A DNA stretch of 47,841 bases from a virus: positions 1 to 47,841 of the IMG/VR virus record IMGVR_UViG_3300047462_000148; one strand, written 5' to 3'. This document shows, piece after piece, positions 2,680 to 45,774 of this stretch (its first letter is position 1; every line of letters begins with the position of its first letter). The notes below the pieces were generated by a model. The model was not told the origin of the DNA and ran no database searches. It was given only the letters and a program-made list of their open reading frames with translations. The position numbers were made by a program, and so were the translations under genes.

Positions 2680-3818
2680 TGAGTGAACTCTGGGGTTGGC
2701 AATCAGGGCAATCACAGGCCCAACAGGATAATCAGTCGAAGCAACTCTTTCAGCTCTCCATGGCCGAGGGAGCGGTTAAACTGGAGACTGAGAAGTTTAC
2801 GCTGGAAAACGCTAAGCTTTCGCTTCAACGACAGGAGCAGGCGCTTAGGTTATTCCAGATGGGATCGCAGGATAAGTCGGCCGGGAACAATCCGGTTCAG
2901 GAAACTTCGGATGTTTTAATGCGACTGGGTAATGCGGAGATGCAGGCGGGATTGTTGGAGGAAGGTGGTAAAAAGGTCTACGAGGCCGCGAAGCTGCAGG
3001 AAGGCCATCAAAAGATTGTAAATGAGACGACGACTAATCAGATTAAACGGTTTACCTTTGCGGCTAACCTTCTCGACGGTGTGCATAACGAGGCGTCTTG
3101 GGAACAGATGAAGATGGTTTACCAGTCGGAATTTGGCGAGCCGCTCGATCCGAATATTGCTAACCGGCCTTACGATCCGCAGCTAATTGACATGCTGCGA
3201 AAGGGGGCGGTGACCCAACTGCAGCAAGCAAATATTGCCAAATCTCAAGCTCAAATAGATTCTGCCAAAGCGGCTCAGGCAGCTAACTATGCCCGAGTGC
3301 CTTACTATCAAGCCGCCGCCCGAGCTGCTGCTGCTCGAGCTGATGCTCTGGGAAAAAACGGCAACACCAATATCAGGGCCAAGCCGGCTGATTTGAGTTC
3401 CGTTACCAGCCTGATCATGAACGACTTTCCTGACACAGACAGGTCCAAAGCCAGAATCCTTGCTGAGCCTATTGCCGAGGAAATGACTCGGATGATTAAG
3501 GACGGAATGGACCCTGTAGCAGCGAGAAACAAGGCTTACGGTGATGCGAAGGCGGCTGGGCAGCTCTGGGGGTTGAGAACGGGGAAGGCGAGGCCAGGAG
3601 AAACAGCGGCAAATCCCCTACCTATTCCACAAGCCGGCGGCAAGCCTGACGTCGCTGCGATGATTGATAATCAGTATTACGAAGTCCCCGGTCATCCTGG
3701 TTGGGTTGCTGTGTTTGATAAAAAGCGGGGTGGTTTGAGTGCGCCGGTCAAACAGGTGCCTGACGAACCCGCTGGTACAAGTGCAGCAAGTGAAGATGAC
3801 GAGGAGGACGACGAATGA
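2679..3818 (+). CDS. Internal virion / ejection-type protein with coiled coil, 379 aa
   Basis: Residues about 10-75 are a long heptad-like helix rich in Gln, Glu, Lys and Leu, and residues about 165-225 are Ala/Gln-rich. The C-terminus is very acidic (last ten residues nearly all Asp/Glu). The start overlaps the preceding stop by one base, and its own stop overlaps the next ATG (ATGA at 3815). Position and composition fit the second of three DNA-ejection proteins that leave the capsid and help build the conduit for DNA entry. No enzymatic motif is visible. A structural role is likely, but the family name is uncertain. Confidence 0.7.
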   Translation: MSELWGWQSGQSQAQQDNQSKQLFQLSMAEGAVKLETEKFTLENAKLSLQRQEQALRLFQMGSQDKSAGNNPVQETSDVLMRLGNAEMQAGLLEEGGKKVYEAAKLQEGHQKIVNETTTNQIKRFTFAANLLDGVHNEASWEQMKMVYQSEFGEPLDPNIANRPYDPQLIDMLRKGAVTQLQQANIAKSQAQIDSAKAAQAANYARVPYYQAAARAAAARADALGKNGNTNIRAKPADLSSVTSLIMNDFPDTDRSKARILAEPIAEEMTRMIKDGMDPVAARNKAYGDAKAAGQLWGLRTGKARPGETAANPLPIPQAGGKPDVAAMIDNQYYEVPGHPGWVAVFDKKRGGLSAPVKQVPDEPAGTSAASEDDEEDDE

Positions 3819-12506: not shown

Positions 12507-12550
12507 GTAATGGTAGGCGCCTAGAATCATTGTATTTTAGGCGCCTCCAT
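12507..12550 (-). promoter_or_regulatory. Dyad element copy 1 at the convergent operon junction
   Basis: Read leftward it is ATGGAGGCGCCT, 16 variable bases, AGGCGCCT, then ACCATTAC. The two self-complementary 8-mers are 24 bases apart, exactly as at 30197-30240, and both flanks match that copy. Part of it encodes the last residues of the 12527-13720 gene. It sits where rightward and leftward units converge, so a bidirectional terminator or protein-binding site is possible. Confidence 0.6.
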
Positions 12551-21084: not shown

Positions 21085-21724
21085 GCTCTGATCCTCCGCT
21101 GTTCGTAGAGCCAACCGCAATCAAGTCGGCGAGCAGCTGGCAGGGATTGATGGCCGCCCACGCCGCCGATCCCGCCGCCCCCATCGCCGCTGCTTTCGCC
21201 GCCTCCGCCGCCCACGCCAACGCCTCCGCCGCCCACGCCGCTGCTTCCGCCGCTTTCTCCGCCGCCGCTGCCGCCGCTGCTTCCGCCGCTTTCTCCGCCG
21301 CCGCTGCCGCCTCCGCCGCTGCCGCCGCCGATCCAGTCTTTTCCTTAAGCATTGTTCGCCACTCAGTGCCGAAACCACGAGCATTGGCTGTCGGCTGCAA
21401 CAGCGGCAGGGCTACCGTCCACATATGGTTTAATAGCACGTTAAGCCGTTCTTTTTCGTGGTCGCGGCCAGTGCCCGCAGCAAGCGGTAGCAGGCGCTTC
21501 CATTCGACACTGTTGCGCATGTCGTCGGGCACCAAGTCTTGCGTGATAATGATCCAACGGCCAATTACTTCAGACATGCACGCCGGTATGTCATCCGTCA
21601 ATTCGCCGGTCAATGCGAGATTGATCGCGGCGATGCTGCATGCGTTTTCTTTGTCACCTAGTCCTCTGGGCAAGTGCATACGGTTCACAAGATCAGCGAT
21701 TTTCTGCATATCTATGGTGTTCAT
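21077..21724 (-). CDS. Protein with Ala-rich low-complexity C-terminal region, 215 aa
   Basis: The start at 21724 shares a base with the nuclease stop (TAATG) and has GAGGAGA upstream; the longer frame to 21760 is not needed. Residues about 1-130 look globular, with helices such as MQKIADLVNRM and CSIAAINLALTGEL. Residues about 132-190 are almost entirely Ala, with Glu, Lys and Trp at regular intervals, forming a predicted long single helix. The matching DNA (about 21155-21325) is imperfect GCC-type triplet repeats. The gene lies between two 41-bp direct repeats, suggesting a gained module. Function unknown. Confidence 0.75.
   Translation of the reverse strand: MNTIDMQKIADLVNRMHLPRGLGDKENACSIAAINLALTGELTDDIPACMSEVIGRWIIITQDLVPDDMRNSVEWKRLLPLAAGTGRDHEKERLNVLLNHMWTVALPLLQPTANARGFGTEWRTMLKEKTGSAAAAAEAAAAAEKAAEAAAAAAAEKAAEAAAWAAEALAWAAEAAKAAAMGAAGSAAWAAINPCQLLADLIAVGSTNSGGSEHG
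21155..21325. repeat. GCC/GCT-rich triplet-repeat tract inside the Ala-rich gene
   Basis: On the plus strand the tract is dominated by CCGCC, GCCGCC and GCTTCCGCC units with scattered variants. It encodes the Ala/Glu/Trp helix leftward. Such tracts change length by slippage, so the repeat number is likely variable between relatives. Confidence 0.75.
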
Positions 21725-23635: not shown

Positions 23636-23762
23636 TTTGAGTCTCCGATTTAGTAAGGTCGTTCATTAATTTGAGCTGTTTTGCGAGTTCCTGATCAGTT
23701 GCCTCGCGCAAGTGGTACGGGGGGCTACCAGGTGCGCGAGGCGAACTGAATGGGGAAGTCAA
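23364..23762 (-). CDS. Possible TTG-started overlapping ORF, 132 aa (only the first about 45 residues protein-like)
   Basis: A TTG overlaps the upstream stop as TTGA, with GGGGAG eight bases ahead. The first about 45 codons (HLREATDQELAKQLKLMNDL) read like a real helix, then the frame runs under the 137-aa gene and looks like shadow sequence. Either a short overlapping protein is made, or the segment is a remnant N-terminus of the 137-aa gene lost by frameshift. Weak call. Confidence 0.3.
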   Translation of the reverse strand: MTSPFSSPRAPGSPPYHLREATDQELAKQLKLMNDLTKSETQNANDQPPGHSLQGHSPGAIRTGTQAFPQTQAPNQALGNHVLESTQLETSQSHSNHPHNGRPGGNLQRILPQEPAYDQTFDARAYWDTSRD

Positions 23763-23968
23763 CCTTCAGTCTCCCCTTCGTCTTCCTCGTCTTCGTCGTC
23801 CTCGACGGTGGCTTGCTCATCATCATATTCATACTGAGCAGTTTCAGCCAGATTTTCCAGATCTTCAAGGTGCGACTCGAATTCTGTATCATCGAGATGG
23901 TCATACATCTCAGCGTTGATTTTGCCCTGCAAGGCGGCTAAACGGGTTTTGATTTGGTTAAGGGTCAT
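23759..23968 (-). CDS. Small acidic protein, 69 aa
   Basis: AGGAG lies seven bases before the ATG. An N-terminal helix (MTLNQIKTRLAALQGKINAE) is followed by an increasingly acidic tail in which nearly all of the last 22 residues are Asp or Glu. Such tails can mimic DNA or bind basic proteins. It is the first gene after the leftward promoter near 24007-24036. Confidence 0.75.
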   Translation of the reverse strand: MTLNQIKTRLAALQGKINAEMYDHLDDTEFESHLEDLENLAETAQYEYDDEQATVEDDEDEEDEGETEG

Positions 23969-23993: not shown

Positions 23994-24033
23994 ATTCAAC
24001 GCGCCCATAATACACCGATTCAATGCGCCCCAT
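23994..24033 (-). promoter_or_regulatory. Dyad element copy 2, overlapping a leftward promoter
   Basis: Read leftward it is ATGGGGCGCATTGAAT, ten bases, then GGGCGCGTTGAAT. The last 13-mer is identical to one at 45741-45753 on the plus strand. It covers the spacer and -10 of the promoter at 24007-24036, so binding here would affect the 23968-to-17749 genes. Confidence 0.6.
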
Positions 24034-24036
24034 CAA
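24007..24036 (-). promoter_or_regulatory. Leftward sigma70-like promoter P24
   Basis: TTGATG and TATTAT are separated by 18 bases, about 40 bases before the 69-aa gene. The block AATGCTTTGTTGA covers and precedes the -35, as at three other leftward sites (25087-25124, 28695-28733, 30216-30255). Confidence 0.62.
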
Positions 24037-24043
24037 CAAAGCA

Positions 24044-24060
24044 TTGGGCGATGCGCCCAA
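24044..24060. repeat. GC-rich palindrome next to P24
   Basis: TTGGGC and GCCCAA form 6-base arms around GATGC. It occupies the same place relative to the promoter block as the AT-rich palindrome at 30255-30269. Confidence 0.55.
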
Positions 24061-28057: not shown

Positions 28058-28254
28058 TCCAGATCCTCCCTGGTCATGAAACACCCTGGTTTGCAGTCAT
28101 TCACCTTGCGATACGGGGCGAGCCGGCGGCGTGCTTGTCCCCAAGCCGCCATCTGATCTACTATCCACCAAAACCCTGTCCACAATGCCCACCCCATTGG
28201 CAGTATCATCACTGCCAGAAAGACTGTCAATATCTGCTGTTCGTTCACTAACAT
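28054..28254 (-). CDS. Small membrane protein, 66 aa
   Basis: AAAGGAG lies six bases before the ATG. Residues about 8-34 (ILTVFLAVMILPMGWALWTGFWW) form a strong transmembrane helix, and the tail is basic then acidic (ARRRLAPYRK, MTREDLE). It overlaps the C-terminal coding part of the regulator gene by 158 bases in another frame. The strong ribosome site supports translation. Function unknown. Confidence 0.65.
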   Translation of the reverse strand: MLVNEQQILTVFLAVMILPMGWALWTGFWWIVDQMAAWGQARRRLAPYRKVNDCKPGCFMTREDLE

Positions 28255-28657
28255 TCGAGTCTCCTTTGTTTTCCAATTCAGCTAATTGTTTCAACCTTCG
28301 TTCTTCATCCGACCTCTTGCGAAGTTCAACGTAATCTACTATCGGCGGTCTGTCATCATCAGCCGTTTCTAGCCTACGCTGTACTCCTTCCATGAATTCG
28401 GCGGCTCGTCGTTTCATCTCTTCACTACGCTCCCCGTCATCCAGCGCCATATCGTGTTCAATCTCTTGCTCTGTCCGAATCATCGGAAGTGTTTTCCACG
28501 ATTCGCCCCGGACAATCCTGCCAATTGTCCCCACAGCCACGTCATAACGCTGCGCTAATTCCCTTTGCGTCATTCCATCCGCAAACAGCTTGCGAATGTC
28601 AATCACTGCGTCAGCGTTAACCTTCGCATGCCGCCGATTGTTTATCCTGTATACCAT
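28097..28657 (-). CDS. Helix-turn-helix regulator / possible replication initiator, 186 aa
   Basis: The start is the second ATG (28657), where AAGGAG is six bases upstream. Residues about 14-53 are a helix-turn-helix: VIDIRKLFADGMTQRELAQRYDVAVGTIGRIVRG, of the kind seen in resolvase-like and small phage repressors. The rest is charged and helical (EEMKRRAAEFMEGVQRRLE, VELRKRSDEERRLKQLAEL). It lies directly beside the iteron-like tandem repeat (28781-28840) and downstream of a good promoter, so it could be an early repressor or could bind the repeats at an origin. Confidence 0.72.
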   Translation of the reverse strand: MVYRINNRRHAKVNADAVIDIRKLFADGMTQRELAQRYDVAVGTIGRIVRGESWKTLPMIRTEQEIEHDMALDDGERSEEMKRRAAEFMEGVQRRLETADDDRPPIVDYVELRKRSDEERRLKQLAELENKGDSNVSERTADIDSLSGSDDTANGVGIVDRVLVDSRSDGGLGTSTPPARPVSQGE

Positions 28658-28694
28658 ACCCATCTCCTTGAATGCGTGAGATTTGCCAACGCGC

Positions 28695-28733
28695 AGTATG
28701 GCATGGCGGTCGGCGGCATGTCAATAAAGCAAT
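28695..28733 (-). promoter_or_regulatory. Leftward promoter candidate P28
   Basis: TTGACA (a perfect -35) and CATACT are 18 bases apart, ending about 38 bases before the regulator's ATG. The shared block ATTGCTTTATTG spans the -35 and the bases before it. Confidence 0.6.
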
Positions 28734-28780
28734 GGGGAATGGGTGTCAATCCTTTGCGCATCTCAACTCATCTCATCATC

Positions 28781-29000: not shown

Positions 29001-29022
29001 CTAGGCGCCTTGAATTATTCAA
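29001..29022. promoter_or_regulatory. Dyad element copy 3 (partial)
   Basis: It reads CTAGGCGCCTTGAAT then TATTCAA; TTGAAT-T-ATTCAA is a perfect palindrome. The 13-mer AGGCGCCTTGAAT is identical to one on the minus strand at 30224-30236. It lies 98 bases past the stop of the 29120-29686 gene. Confidence 0.55.
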
Positions 29023-29119: not shown

Positions 29120-29686
29120 CTAGAAGTCTACTTCACTCTCCCCTTCGGCGGTCTCGTCCTCGTCCTCAGTCCCAAAGTCACTCAGCAAGTCATCAGTCTC
29201 GATGCCTCGCCCTGCTTCGGCCCTGATCTCGTCCGCAATCGGTCGGATCTTGTCACTCGCCAGCAACCGCGCCTTGAATTTGGCATCCTTGCTCGCCAGA
29301 AAGGCACGTATGCTGTCCTCAGACTTCTCAGGCTGATACCGCATCAATGCCTTGAGCAGCAACCCGCCCTGGGACTGGCCGCCGCCTCCGGCCAGGCGCC
29401 ATTCTATAGCACCACTCTCATAGTGCTCAATCAGTTCCGCCATAGCATTAAACTTGTCCTGAGGGCTGGCTGACTTCCCAGTTGTCGTATCCCTGCTCAT
29501 CGCTGCAGCGTCCCGAATTCGCTGCTCCCATCCATGCCGCTCGGCCTGCTCACGGCACGCCTGGGAAGCCAGCGTGATATCGAACTGTTTTGTAAAGCCT
29601 GCCTCCGGCACGTTTACATGGAATACATTCCCAATCCACTGCGTGGCAATCACACTATTCGCTCTGAGTTTCATTTGAGTCTCCAT
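29120..29686 (-). CDS. Conserved phage protein, paralogue B, 188 aa
   Basis: GGAGACT lies before the ATG. The C-terminal half repeats the layout of the 206-aa protein at 24401-25021: an acidic helix (AMAELIEHYESGAIEW), a glycine loop (GGGGQSQGGLLLKALMRY), IRAFLASK and a terminal TDDLLSDF. A very acidic tail (TEDEDETAEGESEVDF) follows. It is the first gene of the leftward arm after the operator cluster, so it may be an early-expressed DNA- or host-interacting protein. Function unknown. Confidence 0.78.
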   Translation of the reverse strand: METQMKLRANSVIATQWIGNVFHVNVPEAGFTKQFDITLASQACREQAERHGWEQRIRDAAAMSRDTTTGKSASPQDKFNAMAELIEHYESGAIEWRLAGGGGQSQGGLLLKALMRYQPEKSEDSIRAFLASKDAKFKARLLASDKIRPIADEIRAEAGRGIETDDLLSDFGTEDEDETAEGESEVDF

Positions 29687-29736
29687 TCAGGTTTGTGAAT
29701 CAATCAATCGACGCCCATATACATGCCAGTGCCGTG

Positions 29737-29791
29737 CCAACCAGGCCCACATTAACAATTTGTAATGTTGGCATGCCGGCCCGCTGGTTGG
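29737..29791. repeat. Nested dyads in the control region
   Basis: CCAACCAG at 29737-29744 pairs with CTGGTTGG at 29784-29791, and inside them ACATTA (29749-29754) pairs with TAATGT (29763-29768). It could fold as a cruciform or long hairpin. The stretch 29687-29867 has no gene. Confidence 0.5.
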
Positions 29792-29840
29792 TCGATTAAT
29801 CGCAGTGCACCATGAGACACTGGGAATTGTGCATTGCAAC

Positions 29841-29891
29841 GTGACAATTTTTGTCACTTAGTGACCGTCACATTGTGACAATTTTTGTCAC
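29841..29891. promoter_or_regulatory. Cluster of three operator-like palindromes
   Basis: Two identical 17-mers GTGACAATTTTTGTCAC (29841-29857 and 29875-29891) flank the perfect palindrome GTGACCGTCAC (29861-29871). Repeated dyads with one half-site, GTGAC, resemble the multi-operator control regions of phage repressors. Confidence 0.75.
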
Positions 29892-30074
29892 CACTGGATG
29901 TTCATACAGCCGCCGACATGTGTTGTCCCGGCGCGACTGTTGCCTGGTCAACCAACGGCCTGCCAAGTATTGCAGTGCATCATAGGCAGCCGCCCGCCAC
30001 CCCTCGCCAAACCCTCTGCCATACTCCAAGGCATCATTAGCCCAGTGGTGTTGTACATCACCATGACACTGCAT
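29868..30074 (-). CDS. Possible small protein, 68 aa
   Basis: The frame contains a plausible helix pair (EYGRGFGEGWRAAAYDALQYLAGRWL) that recalls short phage proteins. No good ribosome site precedes the ATG, and the last ten codons are made of the operator palindrome. It could be a short gene whose end is embedded in an operator, or chance. The overlapping rightward frame (29898-30200) is less convincing. Confidence 0.35.
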   Translation of the reverse strand: MQCHGDVQHHWANDALEYGRGFGEGWRAAAYDALQYLAGRWLTRQQSRRDNTCRRLYEHPVVTKIVTM

Positions 30075-30196
30075 CGGCCACCCTTGCGCCGCCGCCGGCC
30101 TGGTGCTGGGCGGTCGGGCCTGGAGGACCCGGGGGAGGGGGAAATTTTCTTAGTGCGCGAAATCGCTCCAATGTTCTTTTTCGCGGGCGAAGGCCT

Positions 30197-30240
30197 GTAA
30201 TTGTAGGCGCCTTAAATAATCTCATTCAAGGCGCCTCCAT
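30197..30240 (-). promoter_or_regulatory. Dyad element copy 4, at the divergent control region
   Basis: Leftward: ATGGAGGCGCCT, 16 bases including TTGAAT and ATTATT, AGGCGCCT, ACAATTAC. It is the same length as copy 1, with both outer flanks matching. It overlaps the spacer and -10 of the leftward promoter P30L. Confidence 0.65.
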
Positions 30241-30255
30241 TGTCAACAAAGCATT
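30216..30255 (-). promoter_or_regulatory. Leftward promoter P30L
   Basis: TTGACA and GATTAT are 19 bases apart, with AATGCTTTGTTG running up to and into the -35. Its -35 lies in the left arm of the 41-bp dyad. It would transcribe towards 29868-30074 and perhaps the whole leftward arm. Confidence 0.5.
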
Positions 30256-30282
30256 TGTAAATTTTACAATCGCTTTGTTGAC
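30242..30282. promoter_or_regulatory. 41-bp dyad between divergent promoters, with 15-bp core operator
   Basis: Eighteen of 20 base pairs match about the centre at 30262. The outer arms are GTCAACAAAGC and its complement, and the core TTGTAAATTTTACAA (30255-30269) is identical to 17688-17702. Each arm carries GCTTTGTTGAC, which supplies a -35 in both directions. Confidence 0.75.
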
Positions 30283-30306
30283 TCGGGGACAGGGCTGGGG
30301 TATCCT
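30278..30306 (+). promoter_or_regulatory. Rightward promoter P30R for the terS-like operon
   Basis: TTGACT and TATCCT are separated by 17 bases, just before the ATG at 30313. The expected transcription start falls at or next to the ATG, so the message would be nearly leaderless. Confidence 0.5.
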
Positions 30307-30312
30307 CGCGAG

Positions 30313-30987
30313 ATGGCCGCCGATCCGCTTTTCGAAATCCTGGACCAAGTGGATCAACCACCCAGTCAGGCCGAGCTATGCTCGGGGGCCCGCCAGGGAA
30401 CGCAGGACAACTCCTCTCTTGATCAGCTTCTCGAAGAGTCCGTCAAGCATCCTACTCCGCCCGTGGTGAAATCCAGTCCGCCCCAGTGGCCTTCAGGAGC
30501 CGCCCGGGGGATCGGGAAGGTTCACTATACCCACGACGCGATGATTAACCTGATGATTGCCAATCCAGGGATTTCGCAAAATGCCCTGGCCCGGCACTTT
30601 GGTTACACGCCGTCGTGGATTTCGCAGGTTATTAACTCCGACGCGTTCAAGGCAAAGCTCTTAGAGCGTACTGGCGAGTTGGTCGACCCCGCCATCCGGG
30701 CCTCGGTTGAAGAACAGCTTCAGAGCCTTATGTCGCGCAGCCTCGACATCCTTCGCCAGAAGATGAACGAGCCGGATGCCTTAAAGATCCCCGACAACCT
30801 CGTCATTCGATCACTTGAACTATCGTCCAGAGCCTTGGGGTATGGAGCCAGGGAGCAAACGGTAGCTGTGCAGGTTAATGTTGACAACCATCTTAATGAT
30901 CTGGGCGGCCGCCTTGTAAAGCTCCTCCATACCAAGAAAGCGGAAGCCTCAGGAGATTTTAGTGAAAGCGAAACAATCGAAGGTTAA
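30313..30987 (+). CDS. terS: Terminase small subunit-like helix-turn-helix protein, 224 aa
   Basis: After a disordered, Pro/Ser-rich N-terminus (about 75 residues), residues about 75-117 form a helix-turn-helix: MINLMIANPGISQNALARHF and GYTPSWISQVINSDAFKAKL. A long oligomerisation helix follows (ASVEEQLQSLMSRSLDILRQKM), then a C-terminal segment. This is the layout of phage terminase small subunits that recognise the packaging site. It is the first rightward gene after the control region, but the large subunit is 7.5 kb away. A transcriptional regulator is the main alternative. Confidence 0.7.
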   Translation: MAADPLFEILDQVDQPPSQAELCSGARQGTQDNSSLDQLLEESVKHPTPPVVKSSPPQWPSGAARGIGKVHYTHDAMINLMIANPGISQNALARHFGYTPSWISQVINSDAFKAKLLERTGELVDPAIRASVEEQLQSLMSRSLDILRQKMNEPDALKIPDNLVIRSLELSSRALGYGAREQTVAVQVNVDNHLNDLGGRLVKLLHTKKAEASGDFSESETIEG

Positions 30988-44818: not shown

Positions 44819-45739
44819 ATGGCAGGTGGAGTTATTACAACTGGTGCACATCCAAAAGCCCTATGGCCTGGTGTGCACGCTTTCTGGGGTCAAGTGTACA
44901 ACGAACACCCCACTGAGTATACGGACCTGTATGACGTAATGATGTCAGATCAGGCCTACGAGCAGGACGTTCAGATTACAGGCTTTGGCCTTGCCCCCGC
45001 GAAACCGGAAGGCGATGCAATGAGCTTTGACTCTGAAATCCAGGGTACAGTGGCAACCTACACGCATATTGCTTATGCGCTGGGTTACATTGTGACCTTT
45101 GAAGAGCTGCGAGACAATCTCTACGAAGTTGTGTCAAAGCGGCGAGCCAAGGCCAATGCGTTCTCGATTGCGCAAACGCTGGAGCAATTGGGTGCAGGTA
45201 TCTACAATGATGCCTTTACGGGCAACATCTTCCTCAATTCGGACGGTGCGACGTTGGTATCTCCCAACCACATCAACGCTACGGGCGGGACGTATTCCAA
45301 TGCCCTGACCCCGAGCGCCGATCTAAGCGAGGCTGCGTTGGAGGATATTGCAATCCAGGCAATGGGATTCCAGACCGATCGTGGGCTGAACATCTCGATC
45401 ATGCCGACGTCCCTGCATATCCCCAAGCAAGAATGGTTCAATGCGAATCGGATTCTGAAGAGTGTGCTTCAGTCCGAGTCGGCATCCAACAACATCAACG
45501 TGCTCAAGGCGACAAATGCGTTCCCCGGCGGCATCAAGATGAATCATTACTTCACGGCCCCGCATGCTTGGTTTGTCCGAACCAACTGCCCTAACGGCAT
45601 GCAGATGTTCTGGCGCGATAAGCCGATGTTCGATACTGACAACGAGTATGATACGAAGAACGCGAAGGCGGCTACGTACTTCCGTTGCTCATTTGGGCAG
45701 ACTGACCCGCGCTCGATTCTGGGTTCTAACGGTCCGTAA
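44819..45739 (+). CDS. Major capsid protein (HK97-like fold), 306 aa
   Basis: The segments GVHAFWGQVYNEHPTEYTDLYD, ALGYIVTFEELRDNLYEVVSK, TLVSPNHINATGGT and RCSFGQTDPRSILGSNGP fit phage coat proteins of the HK97 fold. The long N-arm, spine helix with charged face and A-domain strands appear in order. It has a strong ribosome site (AAAGGAG) and lies centrally in the head genes. The plus-oriented dyad element begins at its stop codon. Confidence 0.88.
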   Translation: MAGGVITTGAHPKALWPGVHAFWGQVYNEHPTEYTDLYDVMMSDQAYEQDVQITGFGLAPAKPEGDAMSFDSEIQGTVATYTHIAYALGYIVTFEELRDNLYEVVSKRRAKANAFSIAQTLEQLGAGIYNDAFTGNIFLNSDGATLVSPNHINATGGTYSNALTPSADLSEAALEDIAIQAMGFQTDRGLNISIMPTSLHIPKQEWFNANRILKSVLQSESASNNINVLKATNAFPGGIKMNHYFTAPHAWFVRTNCPNGMQMFWRDKPMFDTDNEYDTKNAKAATYFRCSFGQTDPRSILGSNGP

Positions 45740-45774
45740 TGGGCGCGTTGAATTAAATGATTCAATACGCCTAC
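45739..45774 (+). promoter_or_regulatory. Dyad element copy 5, directly after the coat gene
   Basis: It reads ATGGGCGCGTTGAATT, then a loop region, then ATTCAATACGCCTAC, pairing GGCG/CGCC and TTGAAT/ATTCAA with a two-base mismatch. It lies between the coat stop and the next gene. Being just past the most highly expressed gene, a partial terminator or RNA-processing hairpin is likely, or a promoter (TTGAAT, 18 bases, TACATA). Confidence 0.6.

Follow-up and report, generated by a model that had tools for sequence, protein, structure and literature searches.

A 41-bp dyad beside a phage terS-like gene as a probable head-to-head pair of extended -35 promoters

The gap between the two arms

The window analyzed here is the whole of IMG/VR virus record IMGVR_UViG_3300047462_000148 (47,841 nt). 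Its first and last 150 nt are 99.3% identical, so that the record was assembled as a circle and is probably a complete genome. The rightward arm encodes TerL (phrog_38; E = 6e-64), a portal protein, and a major head protein, and the leftward arm encodes a primase, a DNA polymerase, a ParB-methylase fusion, and a helicase; podophage families account for the matches of the portal and tail adaptor. Neither an integrase nor a phage repressor was found among the proteins scanned. The arms diverge at a 626-nt gap that holds the dyad and is flanked by a leftward gene and a terS-like gene (table). Homologues of the 188-aa leftward product are likewise encoded divergently from terS in three relatives (G005, G009, and G013). 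An 87-aa open reading frame elsewhere in the leftward arm (21121-21384, minus strand) consists almost entirely of low-complexity Arg/Gln/Lys repeats and is probably a non-gene or a repeat-expanded region.

We use the label terS-like on the strength of the helix-turn-helix (HTH) domain, a weak match of one relative to a terminase small subunit family, and the position of a homologue in MW202489, directly before TerL. Structure prediction for the protein was of low confidence (pLDDT, 64.5) and gave a weak match to the phage protein phBC6A51. Searches of IMG/VR with TerS, with the protein of 29120-29686, and with the exact dyad pattern returned no close relatives. A search with TerL did yield IMG/VR relatives, in which TerS was then located by profile; a profile of seven TerS sequences had no stretch conserved enough for scanning, and a narrower TerS set worked. 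A helicase query found no match in the relatives compared. One further record, L046 (IMGVR_UViG_3300047994_000011), is a 4.8-kb contig whose portal is 100% identical to that of the window over 657 matched residues; it stops short of the terS region but indicates that near-identical phages are present in another record.

Table. Features in and around the divergent gap and at the two other predicted element promoters of the window
Feature	Coordinates	Strand	Remarks
G-box GGGGGAGGGGGAAA	30131-30144	+	Single copy upstream of terS; candidate cos/pac signal
Alternative leftward candidate, TTGAAT-18-TACAAT	30200-30229	-	Sigma70 matrix score
AGGCGCCT palindrome pair, 24 bp apart	30205-30236		Also a hairpin; the genome has five GGCGC-N-TTGAAT-type elements, this one included
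Leftward promoter candidate, TTGACA (30246-30241)-19-GATTAT (30221-30216)	30216-30246	-	Sequence; alignment with the 24.0-kb promoter
41-bp dyad	30242-30282		Probable head-to-head pair of extended -35 elements with a common AT-rich centre
Left element copy CAAATGCTTTGTTGAC	30242-30257	-	Same extended -35 element as the right copy
Perfect 15-bp AT-rich palindrome TTGTAAATTTTACAA	30255-30269		Between both -35 elements
Right element copy CAATCGCTTTGTTGAC	30267-30282	+	Family consensus around CTTKRTTGAC
Predicted rightward promoter, TTGACT (30278-30283)-17-TATCCT (30301-30306)	30278-30306	+	Sigma70-type; leaderless mRNA predicted
terS-like gene	30313-30987	+	224 aa, HTH; start of the rightward arm
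First convincing leftward gene	29120-29686	-	188 aa; SD GGAGACTC
Predicted leftward promoter (28.7 kb), CATTGCTTTATTGACA-18-CATACT, then SD AAGGAG	28695-28735	-	One element copy
HTH protein gene	28097-28663	-	Downstream of the 28.7-kb promoter
Predicted leftward promoter (24.0 kb), CAATGCTTTGTTGATG-18-TATTAT, then SD AGGAG	24007-24047	-	One element copy
69-aa early ORF	23759-23968	-	Downstream of the 24.0-kb promoter; no convincing family match

The dyad and its recurring half-site

The dyad consists of two 20-nt arms around a 1-nt centre, with 18 of the 20 pairs matched, and is the top ungapped palindrome of the whole window. The original prediction had its extent, its 15-bp core, and both promoter strings right to the letter and the coordinate. 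Such symmetry is well above chance: Markov-1 resamples reached at most 16 of 20 pairs, both for the whole window (n = 300) and for the 626-nt intergenic region, where this value was attained once (n = 3,000). The 11-mer GCTTTGTTGAC has exactly two copies in the window, one in each arm (30272-30282, plus strand, and 30252-30242, minus strand). Given the symmetry, a TTGAC in the right arm forces a TTGAC in the left one, so that the second -35 adds no independent evidence. Counting against a simple pair of promoters, the similarity between the arms reaches into the 15-bp core, beyond what two -35 elements alone would need. The core may serve both promoters as an UP-like region or represent two half-sites joined at their upstream ends. 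A reading as an intrinsic terminator was rejected because the dyad lacks a terminator-like site (G+C-rich stem, short loop, and T-run). Rfam and tRNA searches found nothing, and an integrase/attP reading was dropped as nothing was found for it either.

Outside the dyad, near-exact intergenic matches to GCTTTGTTGAC occur only at 28730 and 24042, both on the minus strand and each at the -35 position of an SD-led leftward gene; the remaining one-mismatch match (19577, plus strand) lies inside a gene. Likewise, GCTTTRTTGA occurs four times in the window where 0.3 would be expected. At these other positions the element is a single, asymmetric unit outside any palindrome. The gene behind the 28.7-kb copy encodes the sole regulator-like early protein that we found, which makes it a candidate reader of the element.

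The element extends to relatives. At terS of G005 (L033), 17 of the 20 nt of the right arm are identical and in register. In the same genome, CAATGACTT followed by GG or GA and then TTGAC is found at terS (3194, plus strand) and at two SD-led leftward genes (45445 and 43564, minus strand), and CAATGACTT itself occurs six times versus an expected 0.4. A matrix built from seven sites of the window and G005 detected more leftward promoters in L037, L064, L053, and L052. The promoter class as defined in this analysis comprises CTTKRTTGAC with a -10 hexamer 16 to 18 nt downstream. Across 48 records (0.88 Mb) the pattern had 26 sites, 12 of them with a good -10 at that distance, compared with means of 6.7 sites and 0.6 with a -10 for 25 scrambled versions; one decoy pattern, the closest, still reached 6 sites with a -10, so that generic -35 context may account for part of the signal. 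The early leftward members have an SD-led start codon 30 to 65 nt past the -10.

The original prediction had let its case depend on conservation of the dyad among relatives. The 41-bp dyad was found in none of the relatives' terS gaps examined, including those nearest by TerS (G005, L053, and L052); what does recur, here and in relatives, is the arm, at the -35 of predicted promoters. Dyads unrelated to that of the window occupy the same gap in L083, L080, and L075. That of L083 is a near-perfect 32-bp palindrome, ACACCCGCATTAATATATAATAATGCGGGTGT, located 163 to 194 nt before the start of the TerS alignment. In G005, CAATGACT forms direct repeats about 21 bp apart, both at 3138-3202, upstream of terS, and on the minus strand at 45445-45474, upstream of a leftward promoter, an arrangement that suggests a regulator bound to one face of the DNA.

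Predicted promoters on either side of the centre

TTGACT-17-TATCCT is the highest-scoring promoter of the intergenic region by a sigma70 matrix. Only CGCGAG separates its -10 from the terS ATG, and a 6- to 7-nt distance from -10 to ATG is also present at terS in L035, L038-40, L090/L111, L101, L117, and L118, although these relatives differ in their upstream DNA. Among control off-frame ATGs the distance was seen once. A rightward start at the terS-like ATG, as originally proposed, is therefore well supported by comparative sequence evidence. With the -10 ending so close to the ATG, a leaderless terS mRNA is implied and is probable in the window, whereas G005 and G003 have a short leader before terS. 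The right arm falls within the CTTKRTTGAC class, with its -10 at 17 nt, but differs from the early members in that an ATG follows at 6 nt instead of an SD-led gene at 30 to 65 nt.

The leftward promoter of the original prediction has fared less evenly. The best -10 for the left arm is GATTAT, which matches at four of six positions and lies 19 nt away; GAGATT, at a distance of 17 nt, is another weakly scoring match, and a simple sigma70 matrix favors TTGAAT-18-TACAAT (9.9) over TTGACA-19-GATTAT (8.3). No SD-led gene lies within 200 nt of the left arm: an ORF of at least 55 aa first appears 141 nt on, with a poor SD, and a convincing gene only after about 530 nt. No leftward element copy adjoins terS in the relatives examined, several of which have strong leftward promoters on the opposite side of the G-box. 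The best support for the candidate is that about 56 nt can be aligned between it and the 24.0-kb promoter; both contain GCTTTGTTG and, around the -10, two GGCGC-N-TTGAAT-type repeats at a spacing of 24 bp. GGCGC pairs with this 24-bp spacing occur at three places in the genome, where 0.05 would be expected per strand. Overall, the odds that the leftward promoter is real are about even.

Conceivably, the rightward promoter alone is genuine; the left arm would then be a vestige or a half-site for a factor that helps the rightward promoter, and the early genes would use promoters elsewhere. The poor leftward -10 and the distant gene would fit, as would the extra element copies upstream of terS in G005, which are in direct orientation and come without a leftward promoter; against this, the alignment of the leftward candidate with the 24.0-kb promoter continues through the -10 region, and 29690-30190 contains no other good leftward promoter. 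We regard this as an open contender, somewhat short of an even chance.

Other repeats are found in this part of the genome. Exact GGCGC-N-TTGAAT occurs five times in the window versus 0.05 expected; the elements are dispersed and mostly intergenic (12515-12546, 23994-24029, 29003-29022, 30205-30236, and 45742-45771) and often form a hairpin or a 24-bp-spaced pair. Two identical 17-bp palindromes, GTGACAATTTTTGTCAC (29841-29857 and 29875-29891), flank GTGACCGTCAC in an operator-like arrangement, and similar GTGACAAATTGACTC-type repeats are present in the same gap of L038-40.

We consider it probable, at roughly 0.6, that the dyad is a divergent pair of promoters of one extended -35 class, placed head-to-head around a common AT-rich centre. 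Each arm would be one copy of the CTTKRTTGAC-type element, which the lineage appears to use at early leftward promoters and, in the window and one relative, at terS as well; the palindrome would arise where two outward-facing copies overlap in their AT-rich upstream ends. The right copy would direct a leaderless terS transcript into the packaging/structural arm, and the left copy, more weakly or conditionally, would direct transcription toward the early arm. The predicted starts, near 30313 and 30209, are separated by about 104 nt and the -35 boxes by about 37 bp, at which distance two RNA polymerases would overlap in the shared AT-rich segment and possibly compete. Either the polymerase could read the extra bases, as happens at T4 early promoters, or a phage protein could, the HTH protein of 28097-28663 being the obvious candidate. 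The recurrence of the arm at other predicted -35s in the window and in relatives supports the promoter nature that the original prediction gave to both arms, and their divergent layout is supported as well.

The function originally proposed, an early/late switch worked through a symmetric operator, is not supported. Here, a phage regulator such as the HTH protein would bind the 15- or 41-bp site as a dimer or a pair of dimers, with opposite effects on the early and late promoters. The symmetry, perfect 15-bp core included, is far above chance, a half-site is present at the promoter of the HTH gene itself, as autoregulation would need, and the half-site forms direct repeats in G005. However, at other promoters the half-site is solitary and non-palindromic, an equivalent dyad is absent from the relatives examined, and the element is found at early promoters as well as at terS. 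Whatever factor recognized it would act jointly on the dyad promoters and those at 28.7 and 24.0 kb, and with one element on both sides, its occupancy alone would not oppose them or give a toggle. We therefore think a switch of this kind unlikely.

As a divergent promoter pair, the dyad adds a new member to a promoter class of an uncharacterised phage lineage and is not a novel type of switch. It would provide the first promoter consensus for this largely uncultured lineage and allow the transcription units of early genes and of terS to be predicted in related genomes, and the leaderless terS start and the nearby conserved single-copy G-box bear on the timing of packaging genes and on the packaging start site. 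A more elaborate scheme, to which we attach only a small chance, has a phage-encoded factor, conserved across the lineage, read CTTKRTTGAC by the -35, the doubled site jointly setting transcription of the packaging and early arms beside the packaging start, with a leaderless terS message.

Back-to-back promoters around a symmetric centre are familiar from lambda OR with PR and PRM and from other phages. The dyad shares this layout but lacks an adjacent repressor gene, repeated operators, and, among the proteins scanned, an integrase; moreover, its arms are themselves promoter elements. The nearest worked-out system with opposed early and late promoters and sites over the -35 is the A2c/A2b-A3 early/late switch of phi29, in which four p4 sites, CTTTTT-15 bp-AAAATG, act with p6 (PMC3100819). 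Both have divergent promoters in one intergenic region and inverted-repeat sites overlapping the -35. In contrast, the window has a single dyad of another sequence that does not fit CTTTTT-15-AAAATG, no p4-like protein was identified, and the opposite regulation of early and late promoters is a feature of phi29.

Early promoters of T4 carry additional consensus around UP, -35, TGn, and -10 (PMC2988021). The predicted element resembles them in its conserved bases beyond the -35 and -10, its AT-rich upstream DNA, and its presumed reading by a host-type RNA polymerase, but its extra consensus differs and is placed directly upstream of the -35. By appearance, ATTGCTTTA (28.7 kb) and AATGCTTTG (dyad) also recall the MotA box of T4 middle promoters, (a/t)(a/t)(a/t)TGCTTtA, which replaces the -35 at 12 +/- 1 bp from the -10 (PMC2988021). 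The window element, however, is followed by a full TTGAC and lies 23 to 25 bp from the -10, outside the MotA spacing, and the proteins scanned had no Pfam hit to the MotA family.

The G-box upstream of terS

The G-box, defined as G4+ H G4+ or G5+, an optional C or T, and then A3+, is represented in the window by GGGGGAAA, which occurs once counting either strand. Within 500 nt upstream of terS and on the same strand, it is present in 25 of the 35 non-redundant relatives with enough upstream sequence, versus 0.011 expected per 500 nt, and across the TerL lineage it mostly lies 120 to 480 nt upstream. The form GGGG(N)GGGGG(C)AAA is found in the window, L033, L036, L064, L117, L118, L124, L125, and others. 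In a second TerS lineage, the box is missing from most members. Its position, orientation, and single copy suggest that it may be the packaging start. Contig ends near terS were also considered as physical genome ends, but the six contigs concerned have 70- to 208-nt terminal overlaps typical of circular assembly, so that these ends are uninformative on cos.

In lambda, cosN and the terS gene have the R sites between them. With the conserved single-copy G-box 169 to 182 nt before the terS ATG, the order and distance at this locus resemble that layout, and the dyad could by analogy be a cosB- or pac-like terminase-binding site between a G-box cleavage site and terS. This seems very improbable to us: the HTH sequences of TerS are conserved among the relatives and the dyad is not, and half-site copies at the 28.7- and 24.0-kb promoters would be unexpected for a packaging site.

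Eleven relatives (L074, L080, L081, L082, L083, L087, L089, L097, L115, L116, and L119) carry a tandem pair of adjacent TerS-like HTH genes in place of one. The cultured Alcaligenes phage OK172329 and MW202796 also have the G-box in their divergent gaps.
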